This document shows, in pieces, positions 702 to 62,085 of a stretch of DNA of 64,000 nt. The position numbers and the translations under genes were made by a program. The first letter of the stretch is position 1. Every line of letters begins with the position of its first letter. Under the pieces are notes generated by a model. The model was given only the letters and a program-made list of their open reading frames with translations, was not told the DNA's origin and searched no databases. Origin of the DNA: a virus; the IMG/VR virus record IMGVR_UViG_3300023174_000089, positions 1-64,000 of that record, one strand, 5' to 3'.

Positions 702-2120
702 CTATGTATTGGTAATTGCATGAGTTTTTCGATAGCCCATACTGACTAAACTCCAATTTGTTGATGTTCCCACTTGAACTGGACTGGACCTATATGTTCT
801 GTTATTTTGTCCCAATTGACCATTCCAATTATTTCCCCACATCCATAGTGTACCATCACTTTTAACAGCTGCGGCTGTCCTTTGGTCATCAAATGCTATA
901 CTAGTCCAAGTGTTTGTTCCTAATTGAGTTGGGCTAGATTTGTGAGTTCCGTCAGCTGCGTTATTAAATCCTAATTGACCCTCTTGATTATTCCCCCATA
1001 TCCACAAAGTTCCATCGGTTCTTAGAGCAATACAATTGTTGCTAAATCTATTCAATTGATTAACGACTGCTTCACTCCATGTTGTGAGTGATCCCACTTG
1101 TGTTGGACTGGATCTATAACCATAGTTAATATTTAATCCCATTGCTCTGCCTGTTCCCCATGTCCATAAAGTTCCATCGGTTTTAATTGCCATAGCAACT
1201 GATACACCAATATTTACTTTACTCCATGTAGTGTTTGTTCCCACTTGAACGGGGCTGGATCTGCTTATATAAGTATCACCAGGCCGAGCCAACATAGGAA
1301 CAGGATTTGTTCCAGGACGATCACGGCCCCATGTCCATAAAGTACCATCAGTTTTAATGGCTGCTGTTATAGTTTCAGCAGCACTTACTGACATCCAATT
1401 CGTTGATGTTCCTACTTGTGTCGGACTAGATCTGCCACGATATGATGGAGTAAGTATGTTATTCAGTCCTAATTGACCATAATCATTTTTTCCCCAAGCC
1501 CATAATGTACCATCGGTTTTAATGGCTAATGCATGTGTTCCACTATGGCTCACTTTACTCCAATTGGTATCTGTTCCTACTTGAACGGGACTGGATTTGT
1601 AAGAATAAACATCATCGTTTAGGCCCAATACACCTTGATAACTTCTACCCCAAGCCCATAATGTACCATCGGTTTTAATAGCGAGTGTGCTAAGTCCTTT
1701 GGTGCTCAATACACTCCAATTTATACCTGTTCCTACTTGAACTGGACTAGATCGATCAATCGTGTCATTAAGTGCTAATTCTCCGGCGCCATTATAACCC
1801 CAAGTGTATAGTTTTGCTGTTGGTGGTACCGAAGTATCTTCAACTGTGATCGGATTTGTAGTTTGTCCTACTGTTGGTCCGTTTACTGAACCTGTAGACA
1901 AAGCAATACCTAATGTTTTGGTTCCGTCTAATGTCACATCTAAAGAAGTAGTAACATTGAATGTTGCTTGATTATTTGTAATTGTAATCGATCCAGTATT
2001 GCCACCAACGATATCTGAATTGGTTGTATTGCCTGTGGTTTTCCAATACAACACCGTGCCATCAGCCACTCTGGTTGTGATTACTGTATATTGAACTGTT
2101 TGACCTTCATTTAATGGCAT
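702..2120 (-). CDS. RCC1-like seven-bladed beta-propeller tail protein
   Basis: This 472-residue protein starts MPLNEGQTVQYT behind a GGATT leader. Residues 1 to about 95 look like a Calx-beta/Ig-like beta-sandwich (LDGTKTLGI, ITVEDTS). From about residue 100 there are seven RCC1-type repeats. Each has a WG core (TDGTLWAWG or variants), then GQLG, then RSSPVQVG, then NWS. Seven repeats with a final AI-strand fit a closed seven-bladed propeller. Such repeats (RCC1, BLIP-II) are protein- or ligand-binding platforms; a receptor-binding or decorating role on the tail fibre is inferred. It is a paralogue of 3955-5349 and lies between two fibre genes. Product type is clear from the repeats; the exact function is not known. 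Confidence 0.85.
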   Translation of the reverse strand: MPLNEGQTVQYTVITTRVADGTVLYWKTTGNTTNSDIVGGNTGSITITNNQATFNVTTSLDVTLDGTKTLGIALSTGSVNGPTVGQTTNPITVEDTSVPPTAKLYTWGYNGAGELALNDTIDRSSPVQVGTGINWSVLSTKGLSTLAIKTDGTLWAWGRSYQGVLGLNDDVYSYKSSPVQVGTDTNWSKVSHSGTHALAIKTDGTLWAWGKNDYGQLGLNNILTPSYRGRSSPTQVGTSTNWMSVSAAETITAAIKTDGTLWTWGRDRPGTNPVPMLARPGDTYISRSSPVQVGTNTTWSKVNIGVSVAMAIKTDGTLWTWGTGRAMGLNINYGYRSSPTQVGSLTTWSEAVVNQLNRFSNNCIALRTDGTLWIWGNNQEGQLGFNNAADGTHKSSPTQLGTNTWTSIAFDDQRTAAAVKSDGTLWMWGNNWNGQLGQNNRTYRSSPVQVGTSTNWSLVSMGYRKTHAITNT

Positions 2121-55517: not shown

Positions 55518-55546
55518 TTACTTCTCCTTTTGTGTGTTGTGTGTGT

Positions 55547-55571
55547 TATCAGCGAAATGTGTGTGCTGATA
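55547..55571 (-). promoter_or_regulatory. hairpin downstream of tmRNA coding piece
   Basis: TATCAGC (55547-55553) pairs with GCTGATA (55565-55571), with an 11-base loop. No T-tract on the minus strand, so probably a processing or stabilising element at the 3' end of the tmRNA transcript. Confidence 0.5.
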
Positions 55572-55630
55572 CATTATATAGGCCAGGTGATTCTGTTGCT
55601 AAGTTCACCTGGTGAAACTCCGCTTACCGT

Positions 55631-55663
55631 TTAGGCAGCAAGTGCAAACTTATTATCGTTAGC
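55631..55663 (-). other. tmRNA tag-peptide reading frame ANDNKFALAA-stop
   Basis: GCT AAC GAT AAT AAG TTT GCA CTT GCT GCC TAA on the minus strand. The ALAA end is the usual ClpXP-type degron and AND- starts are typical of proteobacterial tags. It follows an A/T-rich stretch (AAATTAAATTAAAC) as around known resume sites. Confidence 0.9.
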
Positions 55664-55770
55664 GTTTAATTTAATTTGCTTCTTCGGCCGAGTATCTTCA
55701 ACCCTAACGTCTTTAGCTTTGACGATTCTCCATTGTTCTAATTATTGCTATGTCGAATCTAGGCACCCCC

Positions 55771-55831
55771 ATCAGAAGTATATTGCCACATTTGTGTTTG
55801 CTACCAAGAACCTGGTTCGTCAATATACTTT
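55771..55831 (-). other. tmRNA intervening segment with 10-bp closing stem
   Basis: AAGTATATTG (55776-55785) and CAATATACTT (55821-55830) are perfect inverted repeats flanking the segment between the CCA end and the 5' G of the coding piece. They extend the acceptor helix in the precursor, as in known permuted pre-tmRNAs; the loop is removed to give two pieces. Confidence 0.85.
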
Positions 55832-55884
55832 TGGTGGAGGTGGTGGGAATCGCACCCACGTCCACAACAACTTTGAAACAACTT

Positions 55885-55992
55885 CTACGAATTTCCTAGA
55901 ATTAATAATGTTGCCATAACTAAAGCAACACCACCAATCCAATAATTAAATCTATTTACTTTTTTTTGTTCTACACAATCTTTACTAGGCAT
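55885..55992 (-). CDS. tiny single-pass membrane protein
   Basis: 35 residues from ATG at 55992 (MPSKDCVEQKKVNRFNYWIG), preceded by GGAAGGA. Basic N-terminus, then a hydrophobic helix WIGGVALVMATLLILG. The start overlaps the stop of the 42-residue gene upstream (TAATG), so the two are coupled. The stop lies at the very beginning of the tmRNA acceptor piece. Function unknown; may be envelope-targeted. A longer open frame upstream to 56106 is not credible because it overlaps the other gene. Confidence 0.7.
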   Translation of the reverse strand: MPSKDCVEQKKVNRFNYWIGGVALVMATLLILGNS

Positions 55993-56167: not shown

Positions 56168-56827
56168 TTAATATTTACCACTTTTCTCATAATATGAAAT
56201 GGCGTTGACTAGACCTGTGATGTGGTCCTCGGTCTTTTGTTTGAATACGATTGGATGGTTATTCTCAACGGCCATAATGATTACTAGGTCGTGGATAGGT
56301 TCACCTATCAACTCCTCATACATCAACGCATAGGCGCTTGTTTGCCAAAAATAATCTTCAATATCTTCATGGCTTTTAACTTTTTTGGATGTTTTGAAAT
56401 CAATTACCGAAAGCACACCATCAAATTCGGCAATACAATCTACACGACCTGCCATATTCAATTGTTTTGACCAAAGTGCCTGTTCTTGGTAATGAATGTT
56501 ATTAATACGATTCAGGTGTGGTTTAATTGATAAGAACATTTCATGTGCATCAGGCATCACATTACCCAAATCTTCATTATTCAAATATCGTTCACATAGT
56601 GTATGAACATTTGTACCACGAGAAGTTGCTTTCTTGGTAATTGCATTAGCAACATCATCACCTACTTTATTACGCCATGCTTGAAAGATGTGTTTCTTTT
56701 GAGCACCAATCACTGTAGTGACTGATGGTAATTTTGTACCATCAGGCAGTTTGTAGAATCGTCTACCATCAGGAAAAGTTTCTGATTGTAAATCTTGTAA
56801 TTGTTTTGGTGGGCAGTAATTAAACAT
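56168..56827 (-). CDS. PD-(D/E)XK nuclease (RecB-like exonuclease)
   Basis: 219 residues. Motif region: ALWSKQLNMAGRVDCIAEFDGVLSVIDFKTSKK, giving D...(I)DFKxxK, the PD-(D/E)XK core, with a preceding conserved E (CERYLNNE). TSRGTNVHTLCERY is the helical motif typical of phage RecB/Cas4-like nucleases, and FWQTSAYALMYEE follows. Found widely in T4-like cyanophages. Probable role in DNA degradation, repair or recombination. It overlaps the 2OG oxygenase gene by 8 bases. Confidence 0.88.
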   Translation of the reverse strand: MFNYCPPKQLQDLQSETFPDGRRFYKLPDGTKLPSVTTVIGAQKKHIFQAWRNKVGDDVANAITKKATSRGTNVHTLCERYLNNEDLGNVMPDAHEMFLSIKPHLNRINNIHYQEQALWSKQLNMAGRVDCIAEFDGVLSVIDFKTSKKVKSHEDIEDYFWQTSAYALMYEELIGEPIHDLVIIMAVENNHPIVFKQKTEDHITGLVNAISYYEKSGKY

Positions 56828-57599
56828 TTTTTTTCGTCAAAAACTTTTCTTTTAATCTATCAAATAATGCTATATCTTCTGGTGTAAGAGTAACAGCATC
56901 TACATTTTTTCTATATTCTTTTGCTTGATTCTCAACTTGAAAGATATTCCCATAATATTTGAAATTTTTGGTGATTTGCCTTGTGTCATAGGCATCCATA
57001 ATTATATGATAACGATCTTCATCTGAATCATTTCTAATTTGGTGCCACAAATTCACCCACAGAATATAAACTGAACCATCAGCTGGCATATGTAGATTTT
57101 CACCTTGGCAGATATGCACACATTTCTTATTTGTAATTAATGGAATATGAATTCTTGCCATATAGTTATTTGTGTCTGAATCTTTATGAACCAAAGATTT
57201 TGAATGTGCCTGTAAACAAGATACCCTTGCTCGTCTAGGATAAAACCCTAATGATTCCAAATCATCCAACACTTCTTTAATATAACCAACACATCCTGCT
57301 GTTGGATTTTTATGTTCAAATCCTTCTGCGACATTCATATATTTCATGGCTTTATAATTATATTGGCCATTTGGAAAAAATACATCATTTGTTTCTTTAT
57401 CATCAGAATGATAAACTTCCCAACCATCTCGCCAATCACCAGTTCTAGACAATAATGTCCAACCACCAAAGCCATGGTATTCTAGTGTTTCAAATTCTTC
57501 ACCTTGAATCTGTTGTTTACCAAGAGTGAATACATTATTCTCAACCTCTTTTCTCAATCGGTCGATATCAACTTTATAATCCAACTTTTCATACCACAT
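56820..57599 (-). CDS. 2OG-Fe(II) oxygenase, aspartyl/asparaginyl beta-hydroxylase-like
   Basis: 259 residues from ATG at 57599, which overlaps the upstream stop (TAATG) and has a GGAAAC site; a longer frame to 57632 is less likely. The cupin core is RVSCLQAHSKSLVHKDSDTNNYMARIHIPLITN, with H138 and D140 as HxD, and VNLWHQIRNDSDEDRYHIIMDAYD, with H186 and R196 as distal His and 2-oxoglutarate Arg. RIHIPL is typical of the Asp/Arg hydroxylase branch. Substrate unknown; protein hydroxylation is the family norm. It is part of the operon carrying the radical SAM gene. Confidence 0.85.
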   Translation of the reverse strand: MWYEKLDYKVDIDRLRKEVENNVFTLGKQQIQGEEFETLEYHGFGGWTLLSRTGDWRDGWEVYHSDDKETNDVFFPNGQYNYKAMKYMNVAEGFEHKNPTAGCVGYIKEVLDDLESLGFYPRRARVSCLQAHSKSLVHKDSDTNNYMARIHIPLITNKKCVHICQGENLHMPADGSVYILWVNLWHQIRNDSDEDRYHIIMDAYDTRQITKNFKYYGNIFQVENQAKEYRKNVDAVTLTPEDIALFDRLKEKFLTKKNV

Positions 57600-58162
57600 T
57601 ATAAGTTTCCTGTTTCTTTTAAAATTTGACACACATCTTGATAATAATACTGTGTACCTAGAGTAATGGCAAGCCTTTCACTCAAAACATTATTTGGTTT
57701 TACTGCGTGTGGTCGTGTTACATCAAGTAACCACACTTCATTATCTTTTGCGATGAATGATTCTGTTTTTTCCAAATCGTCCTCTTGGTAGATAAATCCA
57801 TTGGTTTGATTATCTATCTGATAGGTATTTGGTTGTTCATCTTTAAACTTATAAAACTGTGTTAAGCAATTTTCAGTTTTTATATAGAAGTTAATTGTTG
57901 AATTTATACCACTATCGGTGTGAGGAGGTATTGAATGGTTCACTTTCATTAAAGACATGAAGAAGTCTTTACGACATCTTTCCGGCAAAACAGAATATAT
58001 TTGTGGATGTAATAATGAATTCAAGTTTAAATATTGTATGCCTTTAAATTGGCCATCAATATTTACACCGTAAGATATTTGAACATCAAGTGGTTCATAA
58101 CCAGGAACAATGAAATTGTTTTTTAATTTAACAAAACTACTTCTTTGATTTCCATTCTTCAT
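57599..58162 (-). CDS. 2OG-Fe(II) oxygenase-like protein
   Basis: 187 residues. MKVNHSIPPHTDSGINSTINFYI gives H81-x-D83; the distal site is TRPHAVKPNNVLSERLAITLG with H152 and R163. The HxD...H...R pattern fits the double-stranded beta-helix of 2OG-Fe(II) oxygenases. It overlaps the next gene by one base (TAATG) and the upstream EF-hand gene by 26 bases. Substrate unknown. Such enzymes next to virion or host-modifying genes are frequent in cyanophages. Confidence 0.78.
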   Translation of the reverse strand: MKNGNQRSSFVKLKNNFIVPGYEPLDVQISYGVNIDGQFKGIQYLNLNSLLHPQIYSVLPERCRKDFFMSLMKVNHSIPPHTDSGINSTINFYIKTENCLTQFYKFKDEQPNTYQIDNQTNGFIYQEDDLEKTESFIAKDNEVWLLDVTRPHAVKPNNVLSERLAITLGTQYYYQDVCQILKETGNL

Positions 58163-58499
58163 ATTGTTTCACGATTTGACATTCATAATCCCAATTAATA
58201 CCTTCATGTGGATTATCCTTAGCGGCTTGCCAAGGTTTACCCAAAATATGTTCGAGAATAGGAATGCCAGGATGTAATATTTTTTCTAATACATCAGCAT
58301 AATCAGTAAACATTTGAAACAACCGCTCTTTATCGGGTTGTTGTAGATTTAAAATGTCGCTGTTCAATTGAGTATCGAAATATTTTACGATATGTTTACG
58401 ATATAACTCAATTTCTTCTTCTGTAACAATACCATCACGGTTGATGTCGGCGTCTGCTACACCATCGTTATTTAAATCAATATCTTTAATATCAGACAT
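58137..58499 (-). CDS. EF-hand-containing small protein
   Basis: 120 residues. The N-terminus MSDIKDIDLNNDGVADADINRDGIVTEEEIELY has two overlapping Ca-binding loops (DLNNDGVADAD and DINRDGIVTEEE), EF-hand or dockerin-like. The remainder is helical (FQMFTDYADVLEKILHPGIPILEHILGKPW) and ends EEWKSKK. It overlaps the Cys-rich gene by 8 bases. Calcium-binding virion or assembly proteins of this size occur in T4-like marine phages; role unknown. Confidence 0.8.
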   Translation of the reverse strand: MSDIKDIDLNNDGVADADINRDGIVTEEEIELYRKHIVKYFDTQLNSDILNLQQPDKERLFQMFTDYADVLEKILHPGIPILEHILGKPWQAAKDNPHEGINWDYECQIVKQYEEWKSKK

Positions 58500-59475
58500 T
58501 TTCTAATTTCCCCTGAAACAGTTTTTCTTTAAATTCTATTAATTTACTTAGATATAGAGCTGTGTAATAAGTAAAAAATACAAGAGCCCAAATTGTGTAT
58601 ACGGCCAAGACTTGTTGTTTTCTATTTGATTTTGGTTTTGGTGGTATATAACTGACCACTCTACAGATAACTGTACCAATTTTCATAATGATACGACCCA
58701 TGGTGTTATCTTGTTTCAAAACACCCATCTTATAAGCCATATGTTCAGACCAAGGTGTTCCAATCTTAACAGCCATTTCAGTTGCAACAATCTTTTGTTC
58801 AATTTTACGGCGTGATTCTTTTTTGATCCAGAACATAAAATCTGGACCTTTAGCATTCATCCATGATGTAACGATACGAGCCCAACGGATATAACCACGA
58901 TAAACCCTCTTATCTGTTTTACGTAACATCTGGCCATATGCCTGATCAGCTGCCCATATTGTAGAACTCATTAGGCCTTTATCATACAAATCAGCACAAA
59001 CGATCTTAGAACAGTTACATGCACAGTTACAATTAAATGTTGCTGAAGCTGCGGCGCCACAATTGTAGCCTACAGTTGCATTACAGTTACAATTATATCC
59101 AGAAGAACAGTTACAATTGGCTTGAAGATACGATTGTGTATCACAGTTTGTGCAATTTATACCAGAACAATTTGTGCACTGAGATTCAAAGGCACCAAAA
59201 GGTAAACACTGCTGACATTGAATGTTTCCACAGTTACAGTTACAGTTTGTGCAATTTGTAGGAGGACAATTGGTATTTGAACAGTTACCATTATCACAGT
59301 TTCCGTCCATATTTCTCTGATAGTATGCTTTATCTTTAAAAGCATCCATGTTTGGACTGGCTGGAGGATTCTTTAAATAACCATTTAAAAACTGCAAAGA
59401 TGCAGAATATGTTGCACCTAAACCTAGTTCGGTCGTTACATCAGATGTCGATATTTGGCCACTTGGTGTTGTCAT
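58492..59475 (-). CDS. Cys/Asn-rich protein with virion-type N-terminus and C-terminal membrane segment
   Basis: 327 residues. The first about 55 resemble phage tail/virion N-termini (MTTPSGQISTSDVTTELG ... AFKDKAYYQRN). Residues 58-160 contain 23 cysteines, most preceded by Asn (GNCSNTNC, TNCNCNCGN, YNCNCN, FNCNCACNC). Residues 165-290 are basic and helical. A hydrophobic segment near the end (VLAVYTIWALVFFTYYTALYL) could span a membrane. It has its own late promoter-like box and sits 30 bases downstream of a radical SAM/SPASM gene, which makes it the obvious candidate substrate. Metal binding through NC repeats is the alternative. Confidence 0.85.
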   Translation of the reverse strand: MTTPSGQISTSDVTTELGLGATYSASLQFLNGYLKNPPASPNMDAFKDKAYYQRNMDGNCDNGNCSNTNCPPTNCTNCNCNCGNIQCQQCLPFGAFESQCTNCSGINCTNCDTQSYLQANCNCSSGYNCNCNATVGYNCGAAASATFNCNCACNCSKIVCADLYDKGLMSSTIWAADQAYGQMLRKTDKRVYRGYIRWARIVTSWMNAKGPDFMFWIKKESRRKIEQKIVATEMAVKIGTPWSEHMAYKMGVLKQDNTMGRIIMKIGTVICRVVSYIPPKPKSNRKQQVLAVYTIWALVFFTYYTALYLSKLIEFKEKLFQGKLENV

Positions 59476-59502
59476 TTTACTGTCCGTTACAATTTATTGT
59501 AG

Positions 59503-59510
59503 TATTTATG
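59503..59510 (-). promoter_or_regulatory. late promoter-like CATAAATA
   Basis: CATAAATA (7/8) on the minus strand overlaps the stop codon of the radical SAM gene. It lies 27 bases before the ATG of the Cys-rich gene, with GGACAG as ribosome site. Confidence 0.5.
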
Positions 59511-60951
59511 TTGTTTCCAACCGTGATTTTCCATATACTTCAATACCTTCTACCTGACCTATTTTTTCACTTACGACCTTGATGGGTATAACCTTTTTCT
59601 TTGGTTCCTCTTTGTGTTCATAGATTGTACCAAAAATATCTTGGCGTTCTAGGGGTAGACCTTCCGCCTTAATTAAAGTTGGAATGTAACCACCAGTAAT
59701 TTTCTCAATGGCCAAGGCAAACAATGGTACATTATCTGAATATGAGTTTGCACAAGATATATCCCAAAACTTTTCATCTAGGAACATACAAGCACCTTTA
59801 CATAGGTGTAAAACTGGACAACCGCTACATTCTTTACGATTACTCCAATGTGTAGAACTTTTGATTCGAACATTATCAAAATCATCTAGTGTTCCACTAT
59901 GGTGACTTTCACCATTTTTACCCATTTCTAAAGAACTTACGTTTTGACAGGTCATAACATTACCACGCAGGTCAACAGCAAGGGTGTGTTCATCATCCAT
60001 GCCACACTTTTGACCTAAGAATTTAGAATTTGTGTGTGTTAATACTGAACCAATAAACCCATCGATTTTGGCCAACTGGCCAAAGAATCCTATTTTACCT
60101 TGTGTGGTGAATATATCAGCAAATGCTGTTCTACGATATTCAAAGTGTTCTTGTTTTGTTTGTAATGAATTAACGATACCATCTTCATCATAAGCGTCAA
60201 CAATACCACCTTCACCCAATACAACATTTGGATCACCGGTTAGTTTAACAAACCATTCATAAATTTCTTTACGTGATTTGTTTTTCGAATTCATCATTGG
60301 GTTGAAACTAAATGATTTACCCAATCTACTCATCATACGGTGAAATCCAAGAATTCTTTTCTTGGCTTCTGGATCATCAAATGGATCTGGCCCACGAACT
60401 GATTGTCCTGGTCCATCATGTGATATTGATACGGAGAAATCCATCATCATCAACCAATCAATGATATCATCAGTTAGAATTGACCCGTTGGTAATGATAG
60501 AGAATTGTGGTTTTCTTTTCCAATCAGAAAACTTTTCTGCAATAGTTTCGGCCAAAGGTTTTAATGTTTTCCAATATACAAGTGGTTCACCACCCCAAAA
60601 CTCAACTCTTAAGCCAGACTGTTCATCAAATTCTAGTTTGTTAAATTTTTCCATAAAAGAATCGATATCTTTTTTGGATGTTTCTGGCATTCTTTCAACA
60701 AATTTCTGTGAACAATAATCGCAGGAGTAGTTACAACTCAAACCTAATTGAATTTTAATATGTTTAACTAATCTAGATTTTTTGAGTGGATTATTCTTGT
60801 CGAATGGGACATAAGGTTTTAAACCATGTGGTTGAATATTATTGTATTGTAATATGTTTCCATTTTCATCAGACAATATGTTGGTCATATTATCATAATA
60901 AAAAATCCTCTTATCGTCTTTTGACTTCTCGGTGTGTATTTCAAATAACAT
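59506..60951 (-). CDS. radical SAM / SPASM peptide maturase
   Basis: 481 residues. Cluster motif C73-NYS-C77-DY-C80 (CxxxCxxC). GGEP at 120-123, ITNGSIL at 153-159 and SISHDGPG at 176-182 are the SAM-binding and core motifs of anSME/peptide-maturase enzymes. The C-terminal half has a full SPASM set: C316, G330-x4-C335, then C375-x2-C378-x5-C384-x3-C388, and C400. These proteins hold three Fe-S clusters and modify peptides by radical chemistry (thioether links, formylglycine and related). The adjacent Cys-rich protein is the likely substrate. The start overlaps the preceding stop (TAATG). Confidence 0.93.
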   Translation of the reverse strand: MLFEIHTEKSKDDKRIFYYDNMTNILSDENGNILQYNNIQPHGLKPYVPFDKNNPLKKSRLVKHIKIQLGLSCNYSCDYCSQKFVERMPETSKKDIDSFMEKFNKLEFDEQSGLRVEFWGGEPLVYWKTLKPLAETIAEKFSDWKRKPQFSIITNGSILTDDIIDWLMMMDFSVSISHDGPGQSVRGPDPFDDPEAKKRILGFHRMMSRLGKSFSFNPMMNSKNKSRKEIYEWFVKLTGDPNVVLGEGGIVDAYDEDGIVNSLQTKQEHFEYRRTAFADIFTTQGKIGFFGQLAKIDGFIGSVLTHTNSKFLGQKCGMDDEHTLAVDLRGNVMTCQNVSSLEMGKNGESHHSGTLDDFDNVRIKSSTHWSNRKECSGCPVLHLCKGACMFLDEKFWDISCANSYSDNVPLFALAIEKITGGYIPTLIKAEGLPLERQDIFGTIYEHKEEPKKKVIPIKVVSEKIGQVEGIEVYGKSRLETT

Positions 60952-61214: not shown

Positions 61215-61483
61215 TCTCTAGGCATCTTTGTTTTGTGACCGTGTTTAACAGTATTTTGTGGAACTTTTTCTTTGATACGACCAATAATCTCACGTTCAAA
61301 TCTTGCATCAGGTTGACCAATACCTGGTACTGACATACGCATGCCGTCACCAAACATTGGTACATCTGTAATGTGTCGTTCTAAATGGGGATTATTTTGT
61401 TTGAAACCATCCAACTCCGATATCTTCATCGTGTGGGTTTCTATTTCGTTTGTTGTTTTATTTAAAAAATCATAGGTTGGCAT
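61208..61483 (-). CDS. conserved small phage protein (FmdB-like N-terminus)
   Basis: 91 residues, MPTYDFLNKTTNEIETHTMKISELDGFKQNNPHLERHI. The N-terminus resembles the beta-hairpin of FmdB-type zinc-ribbon proteins but has no cysteines. Conserved in T4-like cyanophages without known role. One-base overlap with the upstream gene (TAATG). Confidence 0.78.
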   Translation of the reverse strand: MPTYDFLNKTTNEIETHTMKISELDGFKQNNPHLERHITDVPMFGDGMRMSVPGIGQPDARFEREIIGRIKEKVPQNTVKHGHKTKMPREW

Positions 61484-62085
61484 TAACTATACTCATAGGA
61501 AAGTGATTCACGAACATTTTGTGACCACTCTTTCATAAAAGGTGGCACCTCTCTCTTATTTATCTTACCTTTCCATGACCACATTCTCTGTTTTTCCATG
61601 ATATAGTAATTGCGATAAGACTTCAATGAATCACCTGGTACCTTACAAGCATCAGGCATGGCAGGTGTAGGACCAGTAAAACTTACTGCCTTTGGTATGT
61701 TGTTTGGTAGATTCCAAAATAAAGCTTTGACCAAACCATCAGATTCACATTTGTGAACTTTACCATAACGATAGGTGTATTCTTTACATAACTCATTTAA
61801 CAATTTGCTTAACCAAATGTAATTTGAATCTGATTGGCGGCACCATACGGCTGATGGATGATTTACATGAGTGGCTGAATAAAGAATCGTTTCTCTTTCA
61901 TCAGGTAAAATCCAGCGTTTCACTTTACGACCAGTTTTCGATTCAGCAATGGTTTCTTTGCCGTCAATGATACGGTGTGCCGTTGATAATAGTTGGCAAT
62001 ATTCTAGAATCATTTTTACAACGTGCTTATCAACATGATATTGAGCACATTTCACAGGATCATAATCAAGATAAAAAATATTCAT
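61483..62085 (-). CDS. conserved phage protein, unknown
   Basis: 200 residues starting MNIFYLDYDPVKCAQYHVDKHVVKMILEYCQLLSTAHR, with HVNHPSAVWCRQSDSNYIWLSKLLNELCKEYTYRYGKVH in the middle and PDACKVPGDSLKSYRNYYIMEKQRMWSWKG later. This His/Tyr/Trp-rich pattern is conserved among T4-like marine phages, perhaps an enzyme, but I do not recognise a family. It overlaps the upstream membrane gene by four bases (ATGA). Confidence 0.78.
   Translation of the reverse strand: MNIFYLDYDPVKCAQYHVDKHVVKMILEYCQLLSTAHRIIDGKETIAESKTGRKVKRWILPDERETILYSATHVNHPSAVWCRQSDSNYIWLSKLLNELCKEYTYRYGKVHKCESDGLVKALFWNLPNNIPKAVSFTGPTPAMPDACKVPGDSLKSYRNYYIMEKQRMWSWKGKINKREVPPFMKEWSQNVRESLSYEYS

Follow-up and report, generated by a model that had tools for sequence, protein, structure and literature searches.

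What does a radical SAM/SPASM maturase act on when it is encoded by a phage, and is the cysteine-rich protein encoded beside it the substrate? The question is raised by the window analysed here, which covers positions 1–64,000 of an uncultivated virus record of 114,873 bases and contains T4-type baseplate and tail genes. A preliminary description of this DNA suggested a maturase next to a Cys-rich substrate and, with it, a RiPP-like or virion-modification system. With a probability of roughly 0.6, we read the locus as a phage-encoded cassette for protein maturation whose radical SAM enzyme modifies Asn-Cys (NC) repeats, probably by thioether cross-links. On the minus strand, the genes run in the order radical SAM enzyme, Cys-rich protein, 120-aa protein and two 2OG-type genes:

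59506..60951, minus strand: radical SAM/SPASM enzyme, 481 aa, phrog_1802 family (Pfam Radical_SAM 1.5e-08; phrog_1802 2.1e-64)
58492..59475, minus strand: Cys-rich protein, 327 aa with 24 Cys, the proposed substrate (40 further non-redundant homologues from radical SAM loci aligned)
58137..58499, minus strand: small accessory protein, 120 aa (family in 51 window-type loci by neighbour clustering, among the matches listed)
57599..58162, minus strand: putative 2OG-Fe(II) oxygenase, 187 aa (family in 49 window-type loci, among the matches listed)
56820..57602, minus strand: Asp/Asn beta-hydroxylase-like 2OG oxygenase (Pfam Asp_Arg_Hydrox 3.3e-10; family in 48 window-type loci, among the matches listed)

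The phrog_1802 profile covers residues 17–428 and thus most of the length of the enzyme, which carries the two cluster-binding elements expected of its class:

60712..60735, minus strand: CxxxCxxC (C73, C77, C80), ligands of the SAM-binding cluster, invariant in 55 of 55 aligned homologues
59752..60006, minus strand: seven-Cys SPASM region, C316 to C400 (NCBIfam TIGR04085, 33.9 bits; cut-off 27)

All ten cluster cysteines, i.e. the three SAM ligands and C316, C335, C375, C378, C384, C388 and C400 of the SPASM region, are invariant in 53–55 homologues with identities down to ~33%, in agreement with the intact CxxxCxxC and complete seven-Cys SPASM pattern noted previously. The AF2 model (pLDDT 91, pTM 0.90) is closest in fold to TigE, anaerobic sulfatase-maturating enzymes (anSME), ChlB and the thioether-forming CteB at TM ~0.5, with values of 0.5–0.65 for anSME structures. 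TigE (PDB 8vpo) is both the best solved sequence relative (9.5e-22) and the top fold match, at a modest similarity of TM 0.45–0.48 and 15% identity; it acts on another substrate, and its rank as best solved relative is not evidence for thioether chemistry. No score of the enzyme reaches the curated cut-off of an NCBIfam maturase family, and all fall far short: PapB is the best profile (77.1 bits; cut-off 340), and TIGR03906 (quinohemoprotein amine dehydrogenase maturase), among the top three, scores 69.9 bits against a cut-off of 453. In the model, residues 1–60 form beta strands and loops and include no helix (block pLDDT 84–97), and a winged-helix leader-recognition domain (RRE, beta3-alpha3) is absent from this modelled N-terminus. 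Searches of plasmids returned no close relative. At some loci, a second, shorter radical SAM protein directly adjoins the first (L204, 4695-5708 and 5745-7088; L112; L113; L201).

The neighbouring 327-aa protein is divided into the following parts:

58996..59304, minus strand: Asn-Cys repeat region, residues 58–160
58495..59007, minus strand: C-terminal helical domain, residues 157–327 (AF2 pLDDT ~90 or more over most of it)
58537..58611, minus strand: hydrophobic, membrane-like helix within the C-terminal domain, residues ~289–313 (from sequence and AF2 helix)

Residues 58–160 hold 23 Cys, as had been claimed, and 18 of these are preceded by Asn, compared to 4.9 NC pairs on average and at most 13 in 10,000 shuffles of the segment; the 24th Cys sits in the C-terminal half. 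The region is not a pure DNA repeat, because its Asn and Cys codons are mixed, and a chance DNA repeat as the origin of the tracts was rejected, with only 19 of 124 (NC)4 tracts being pure hexamer repeats. AF2 gave no usable structure for the Asn-Cys region (pLDDT <50 for residues 46–156). The membrane segment reported behind this region corresponds to the hydrophobic helix. A PDB fold search with the C-terminal helical domain yielded no match, and comparison of the family to PDB sequences a single marginal one. The N-terminus (SGQIxxSDVxxELG), which we take to resemble those of phage tail proteins, has no PHROG match. Homologues are mostly ~180–600 aa long, a few of them 65–140 aa.

We surveyed the co-occurrence of enzyme and repeat in both directions. 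Three viral scans, each started from a different part of the enzyme family, gave at least 230 loci, which were scored for an open reading frame containing a dense NC tract. Among the matches listed, such a tract is encoded on the enzyme's strand at a distance of at most 6 kb in 189 of 230 enzyme-chosen loci (77/80, 60/78 and 52/72 for the individual scans) and in 99 of the 101 loci with adequate flanks (38/38, 30/32 and 31/31, the latter two counting CxCxC with NC at least twice), counts that are not independent since the surveyed loci share ancestry. The two exceptions with adequate flanks among the matches listed are L219 and L250; where enough flanking DNA is available, the enzyme family thus hardly ever occurs apart from an NC tract, and the neighbourhood survey bears out the association proposed in the preliminary description. 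In the reverse direction, the NCNCNCNC-coding DNA pattern alone retrieved at least 120 viral loci; the fetched flank contains the enzyme in 74 of 120 and lacks it in 46 (among the matches listed). Many of the latter are contig ends, wrong-frame matches or contigs that carry the enzyme elsewhere, and a whole-record search of 25 remaining records recovered an enzyme match in 13, three of them divergent. The control pattern (NT)5 was accompanied by the enzyme in 0 of 120 loci and by an NC tract in 0 of 120, among the matches listed. The pairing is also found at prophage loci in the cellular genomes of Limnohabitans, Polynucleobacter, Burkholderia paludis and Paraburkholderia. It fades in the most distant enzyme homologues at prophage and genome loci, where those at ~400–470 bits (Variovorax, Ramlibacter, Bacteriovorax) have no clear NC tract. 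The pairing of enzyme and NC tract is well supported.

Does the enzyme follow the NC region or the protein that bears it? We picked at least 80 loci by the C-terminal domain of the Cys-rich protein alone. Among the matches listed, the enzyme is present in 27 of 27 loci with an NC region and in 0 of 53 without, and a 2OG oxygenase in 24 of 27 and 0 of 53, respectively, these counts not being phylogenetically independent. The 53 NC-less loci carry poly-Gly, poly-Pro, Hint or other sequence before the C-terminal domain, and a whole-record search of 25 of these 53 records found no family enzyme (best match 59.6 bits). By this contrast, the enzyme is linked to the NC region and not to the protein as such, and the C-terminal domain as the enzyme's associate is rejected on the same counts. 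Together with the 99 of 101 paired loci, this corroborates for phages the layout of a maturase beside a Cys-rich substrate. In cyanophages (L003:4669-6519, Synechococcus phage SynMITS9220M01; L555), the C-terminal domain stands behind long poly-Pro and poly-Arg tracts.

Outside the lineage of the window, most NC tracts form the very C-terminal end of tail-fibre-like proteins: 107 of 122 tracts in the A3, A4 and genome sets (tail-type and prophage; among the matches listed) end at most 5 residues from the stop. Coarse clustering distributes the tract-bearing scaffolds over several families, two large and several small. The residue preceding Cys is Asn at 66–74% of positions across three sets and otherwise mainly Ala and Asp, and a Cys-Cys spacing of 2 accounts for 64–67% of spacings in tail-type tracts versus 29% in window-type NC regions. 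The C-terminal placement on tail-fibre-like proteins fits the virion modification suggested earlier, and a virion location of the NC protein is likely.

Two isolated phages, Achromobacter phages JWF and 2-1, encode a phrog_1802 homologue with 43% and 41% identity to the window enzyme. They likewise carry an NC run, NCNCDCNCNCSC or NCNCDCNCSC, in a tail-fibre-like protein two genes upstream of the homologue. Here, the run immediately precedes a Hint domain, whereas the window protein continues into a helical C-terminal domain. Self-cleavage at the first Cys of Hint would place the run of JWF and 2-1 at a new C-terminus, and in some proteins a Hint domain directly behind the run could expose it in this manner. 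None of the papers found treats enzyme and NC run as a maturation pair.

Both genes at the downstream end of the window cassette encode the HxD...H facial triad and downstream Arg of 2OG-Fe(II) oxygenases, a signature overlooked in the preliminary description. In the 187-aa protein, which has no Pfam match, H81-x-D83, H152 and R163 reach at least 90% conservation across 74 aligned sequences; in the product of 56820–57602, the same holds for H139-x-D141, H187 and R197 in 49. Across 299 non-redundant loci, the commonest non-enzyme neighbour is a 2OG-FeII_Oxy_5 (PF13759) family, present in 176 (by clustering, among the matches listed) and matched by the Pfam model in 43 of 52 diverse members. A PF13759-type oxygenase is encoded no more than 4 kb from the enzyme in 58 of the 78 A3-scan loci listed, compared to 5 of 120 control loci with one anywhere. 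It was not found in the window's own record, where the two other 2OG-type genes may take its place. The 120-aa accessory protein gives a weak EF-hand match only, and its DxNxDG-type EF-hand-like repeats are not conserved across its family.

Some further genes stand near the cassette, here or elsewhere. At some loci, a protein whose family representative matches Pfam FA_desaturase (L009:2572-3291; family in 22 loci) is encoded between enzyme and NC gene and, judged by this match, is possibly a further oxidative enzyme. The product of 61483-62085 (minus strand) resembles pyrimidine dimer DNA glycosylases, with a Pfam Pyr_excise match at the cut-off, and its family is frequent upstream of the radical SAM enzyme in window-type loci. 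An RCC1-like repeat protein (702-2120, minus strand) adjoins phage structural genes, and an RNA gene was recognised as well:

55540-55924, minus strand: permuted tmRNA gene with the tag ANDNKFALAA (Rfam tmRNA_permuted, 112.4 bits; gathering score 47)

Gene pairing, conserved catalytic Cys and 2OG triads, and tract placement are observed; the following mechanism is proposed. The radical SAM/SPASM enzyme would target x-Cys repeats (x = Asn, then Ala or Asp) of tail-type proteins. We consider it very likely that the NC tract is the enzyme's substrate, which in the window would be the 327-aa neighbour. With a Cys bound to an auxiliary cluster, a 5'-deoxyadenosyl radical would take a hydrogen from a residue close to this Cys, and a thioether would then join the Cys sulfur to a carbon of a nearby residue such as Asn or Asp. 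To this thioether chemistry we give an even chance. One or more 2OG-Fe(II) oxygenases of the same operon probably hydroxylate residues of the same proteins, and a substrate shared between oxygenase and radical SAM enzyme is probable. The product would likely be a covalently stapled, stable segment, usually at the extreme C-terminal tip of a tail fibre. PapB and QhpD form Cys-Asp/Glu thioethers, in the case of QhpD on a protein (PMC8172795, PMC9413430). Known products of the enzyme group include Cys-to-Asn sactionines and Cys-to-Asp thioethers (PMC8172795), and PapB accepts Cys-Xn-Asp with n = 0–6 (PMC9413430). Strict xC alternation counts against such cross-links, as it limits the partners to near neighbours in a single extended chain.

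The system is built from known enzyme classes. QhpD is a radical SAM maturase directed at a protein subunit with several Cys instead of a short peptide, as we propose for the window enzyme; its substrate subunit is encoded in the same operon, and here enzyme and putative substrate show a strong genetic pairing. In contrast to QhpD, which belongs to a bacterial operon for an enzyme and crosslinks Cys to Asp/Glu (PMC8172795), the system here is encoded by phages, involves Asn-Cys repeats and has a 2OG oxygenase as partner, and no qhp-type genes were recognised among the neighbours examined. PapB and the ranthipeptide/sactipeptide maturases share with the window enzyme an adjoining Cys-rich protein, here the proposed substrate, and the window enzyme also has the intact SPASM region and cluster ligands of ranthipeptide/sactipeptide maturases. 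Unlike their short leader-bearing precursors, the proposed window substrate comprises 327 aa, and unlike in PapB-type systems, the substrates here are mostly long tail-type proteins. The plain RiPP label is therefore dropped: the substrates are long and of structural type, the modelled enzyme has no winged helix as RRE, and among the neighbours examined neither an exporter nor a leader peptidase recurs. Literature searches on the NCNCNC motif and on radical SAM enzymes in connection with tail fibres, prophages or virions, with most subscription papers and preprints outside their scope, found no such phage system described, consistent with the earlier statement that none was known.

Other explanations have to account for the same observations. 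Enzyme and NC protein could be mere neighbours, the enzyme acting on a host protein, lipid or nucleotide and the NC protein being an unmodified, possibly disulfide-bonded structural component. The 46 of 120 repeat-chosen loci (among the matches listed) without enzyme in the fetched flank and the two loci L219 and L250 speak for this; however, many of the missing cases are explained by contig ends, wrong frames or an enzyme elsewhere, the pairing repeats across several scaffold families and in prophages, and 27 of 27 versus 0 of 53 within one protein family (among the matches listed) makes a chance neighbourhood very improbable. The NC tract could also form a metal- or cluster-binding tip, with the enzyme tuning metal binding or helping to install the metal. 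The tip of T4 gp37 binds iron through His-x-His, and alternating Cys on one strand face at fibre C-termini would suit metal binding in a trimer. This idea by itself leaves unexplained the Asn at 66–74% of pre-Cys positions and gives no reason why a radical SAM enzyme and an oxygenase should be needed, and we regard it as unlikely.

With the tract as substrate, the chemistry could still differ. A peptide epimerase would turn every second residue of the NC run into its D form, and the tail would fold as a beta-helix, the fold of polytheonamide-type peptides. In such proteusin systems, radical SAM and 2OG oxygenase genes occur together and act on a repetitive ribosomal product. The strict i, i+2 alternation in 64–67% of the Cys-Cys spacings of tail-type tracts and the oxygenase as common partner fit this picture, and there is weak sequence similarity to the epimerase YydG (5.4e-07). 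Yet YydG stands further from the enzyme than the SPASM thioether maturases and TigE do, the alternation is less regular in window-type NC regions (29%), no proteusin-type precursor is seen here, and Cys is the constant residue although alternation needs none; epimerization is quite unlikely. Oxidation of Cys to formylglycine or another aldehyde would follow the anSME style, and both the anSME structures among the closest folds and the GenBank annotation of the JWF homologue as anaerobic sulfatase-maturating enzyme point in this direction. In anSME, the Asp that follows the cluster Cys of the G-x4-C loop is the proposed base; in the alignment with 4k37/4k36 its position is taken by Gln336, at least 90% conserved in the family, and the anSME reading was rejected on this exchange. 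With no C-x-P-x-R sulfatase-type motif seen in NC tracts and up to 23 Cys per protein as an odd target, aldehyde formation is highly unlikely, and modification of the NC repeats, probably by thioether cross-links, is the reading we retain.

A broader proposal is tentative, and we place it somewhat short of even odds: radical SAM enzymes and 2OG oxygenases would remake Asn-Cys repeats into a new covalently modified virion element, a widespread, hitherto undescribed class of phage self-modification, in which the repeats act as C-terminal tags on unrelated tail proteins and the stapled or otherwise chemically new tip functions in adsorption or DNA delivery. If this holds, tailed phages modify their own structural proteins by radical chemistry, a role undescribed for these enzymes in the literature searched. 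In that case, phrog_1802 as well as many phage 2OG oxygenases would gain a function, radical SAM/SPASM maturation would reach beyond peptides to fibre tips, and protein stapling could draw on a genetically encoded C-terminal tag. Hundreds of viral contigs and prophages show the pairing, among them prophages of the cultured bacteria Limnohabitans, Burkholderia paludis, Paraburkholderia and Polynucleobacter and the two isolated Achromobacter phages, and it is therefore directly testable.

A related system consists of proteins of 67–82 aa with tails such as STACNCNCNCNCTRGIL, which occur together with divergent radical SAM proteins (L091, L097, L132, L140, L156); in several cases, two to three divergent radical SAM proteins are encoded per record.
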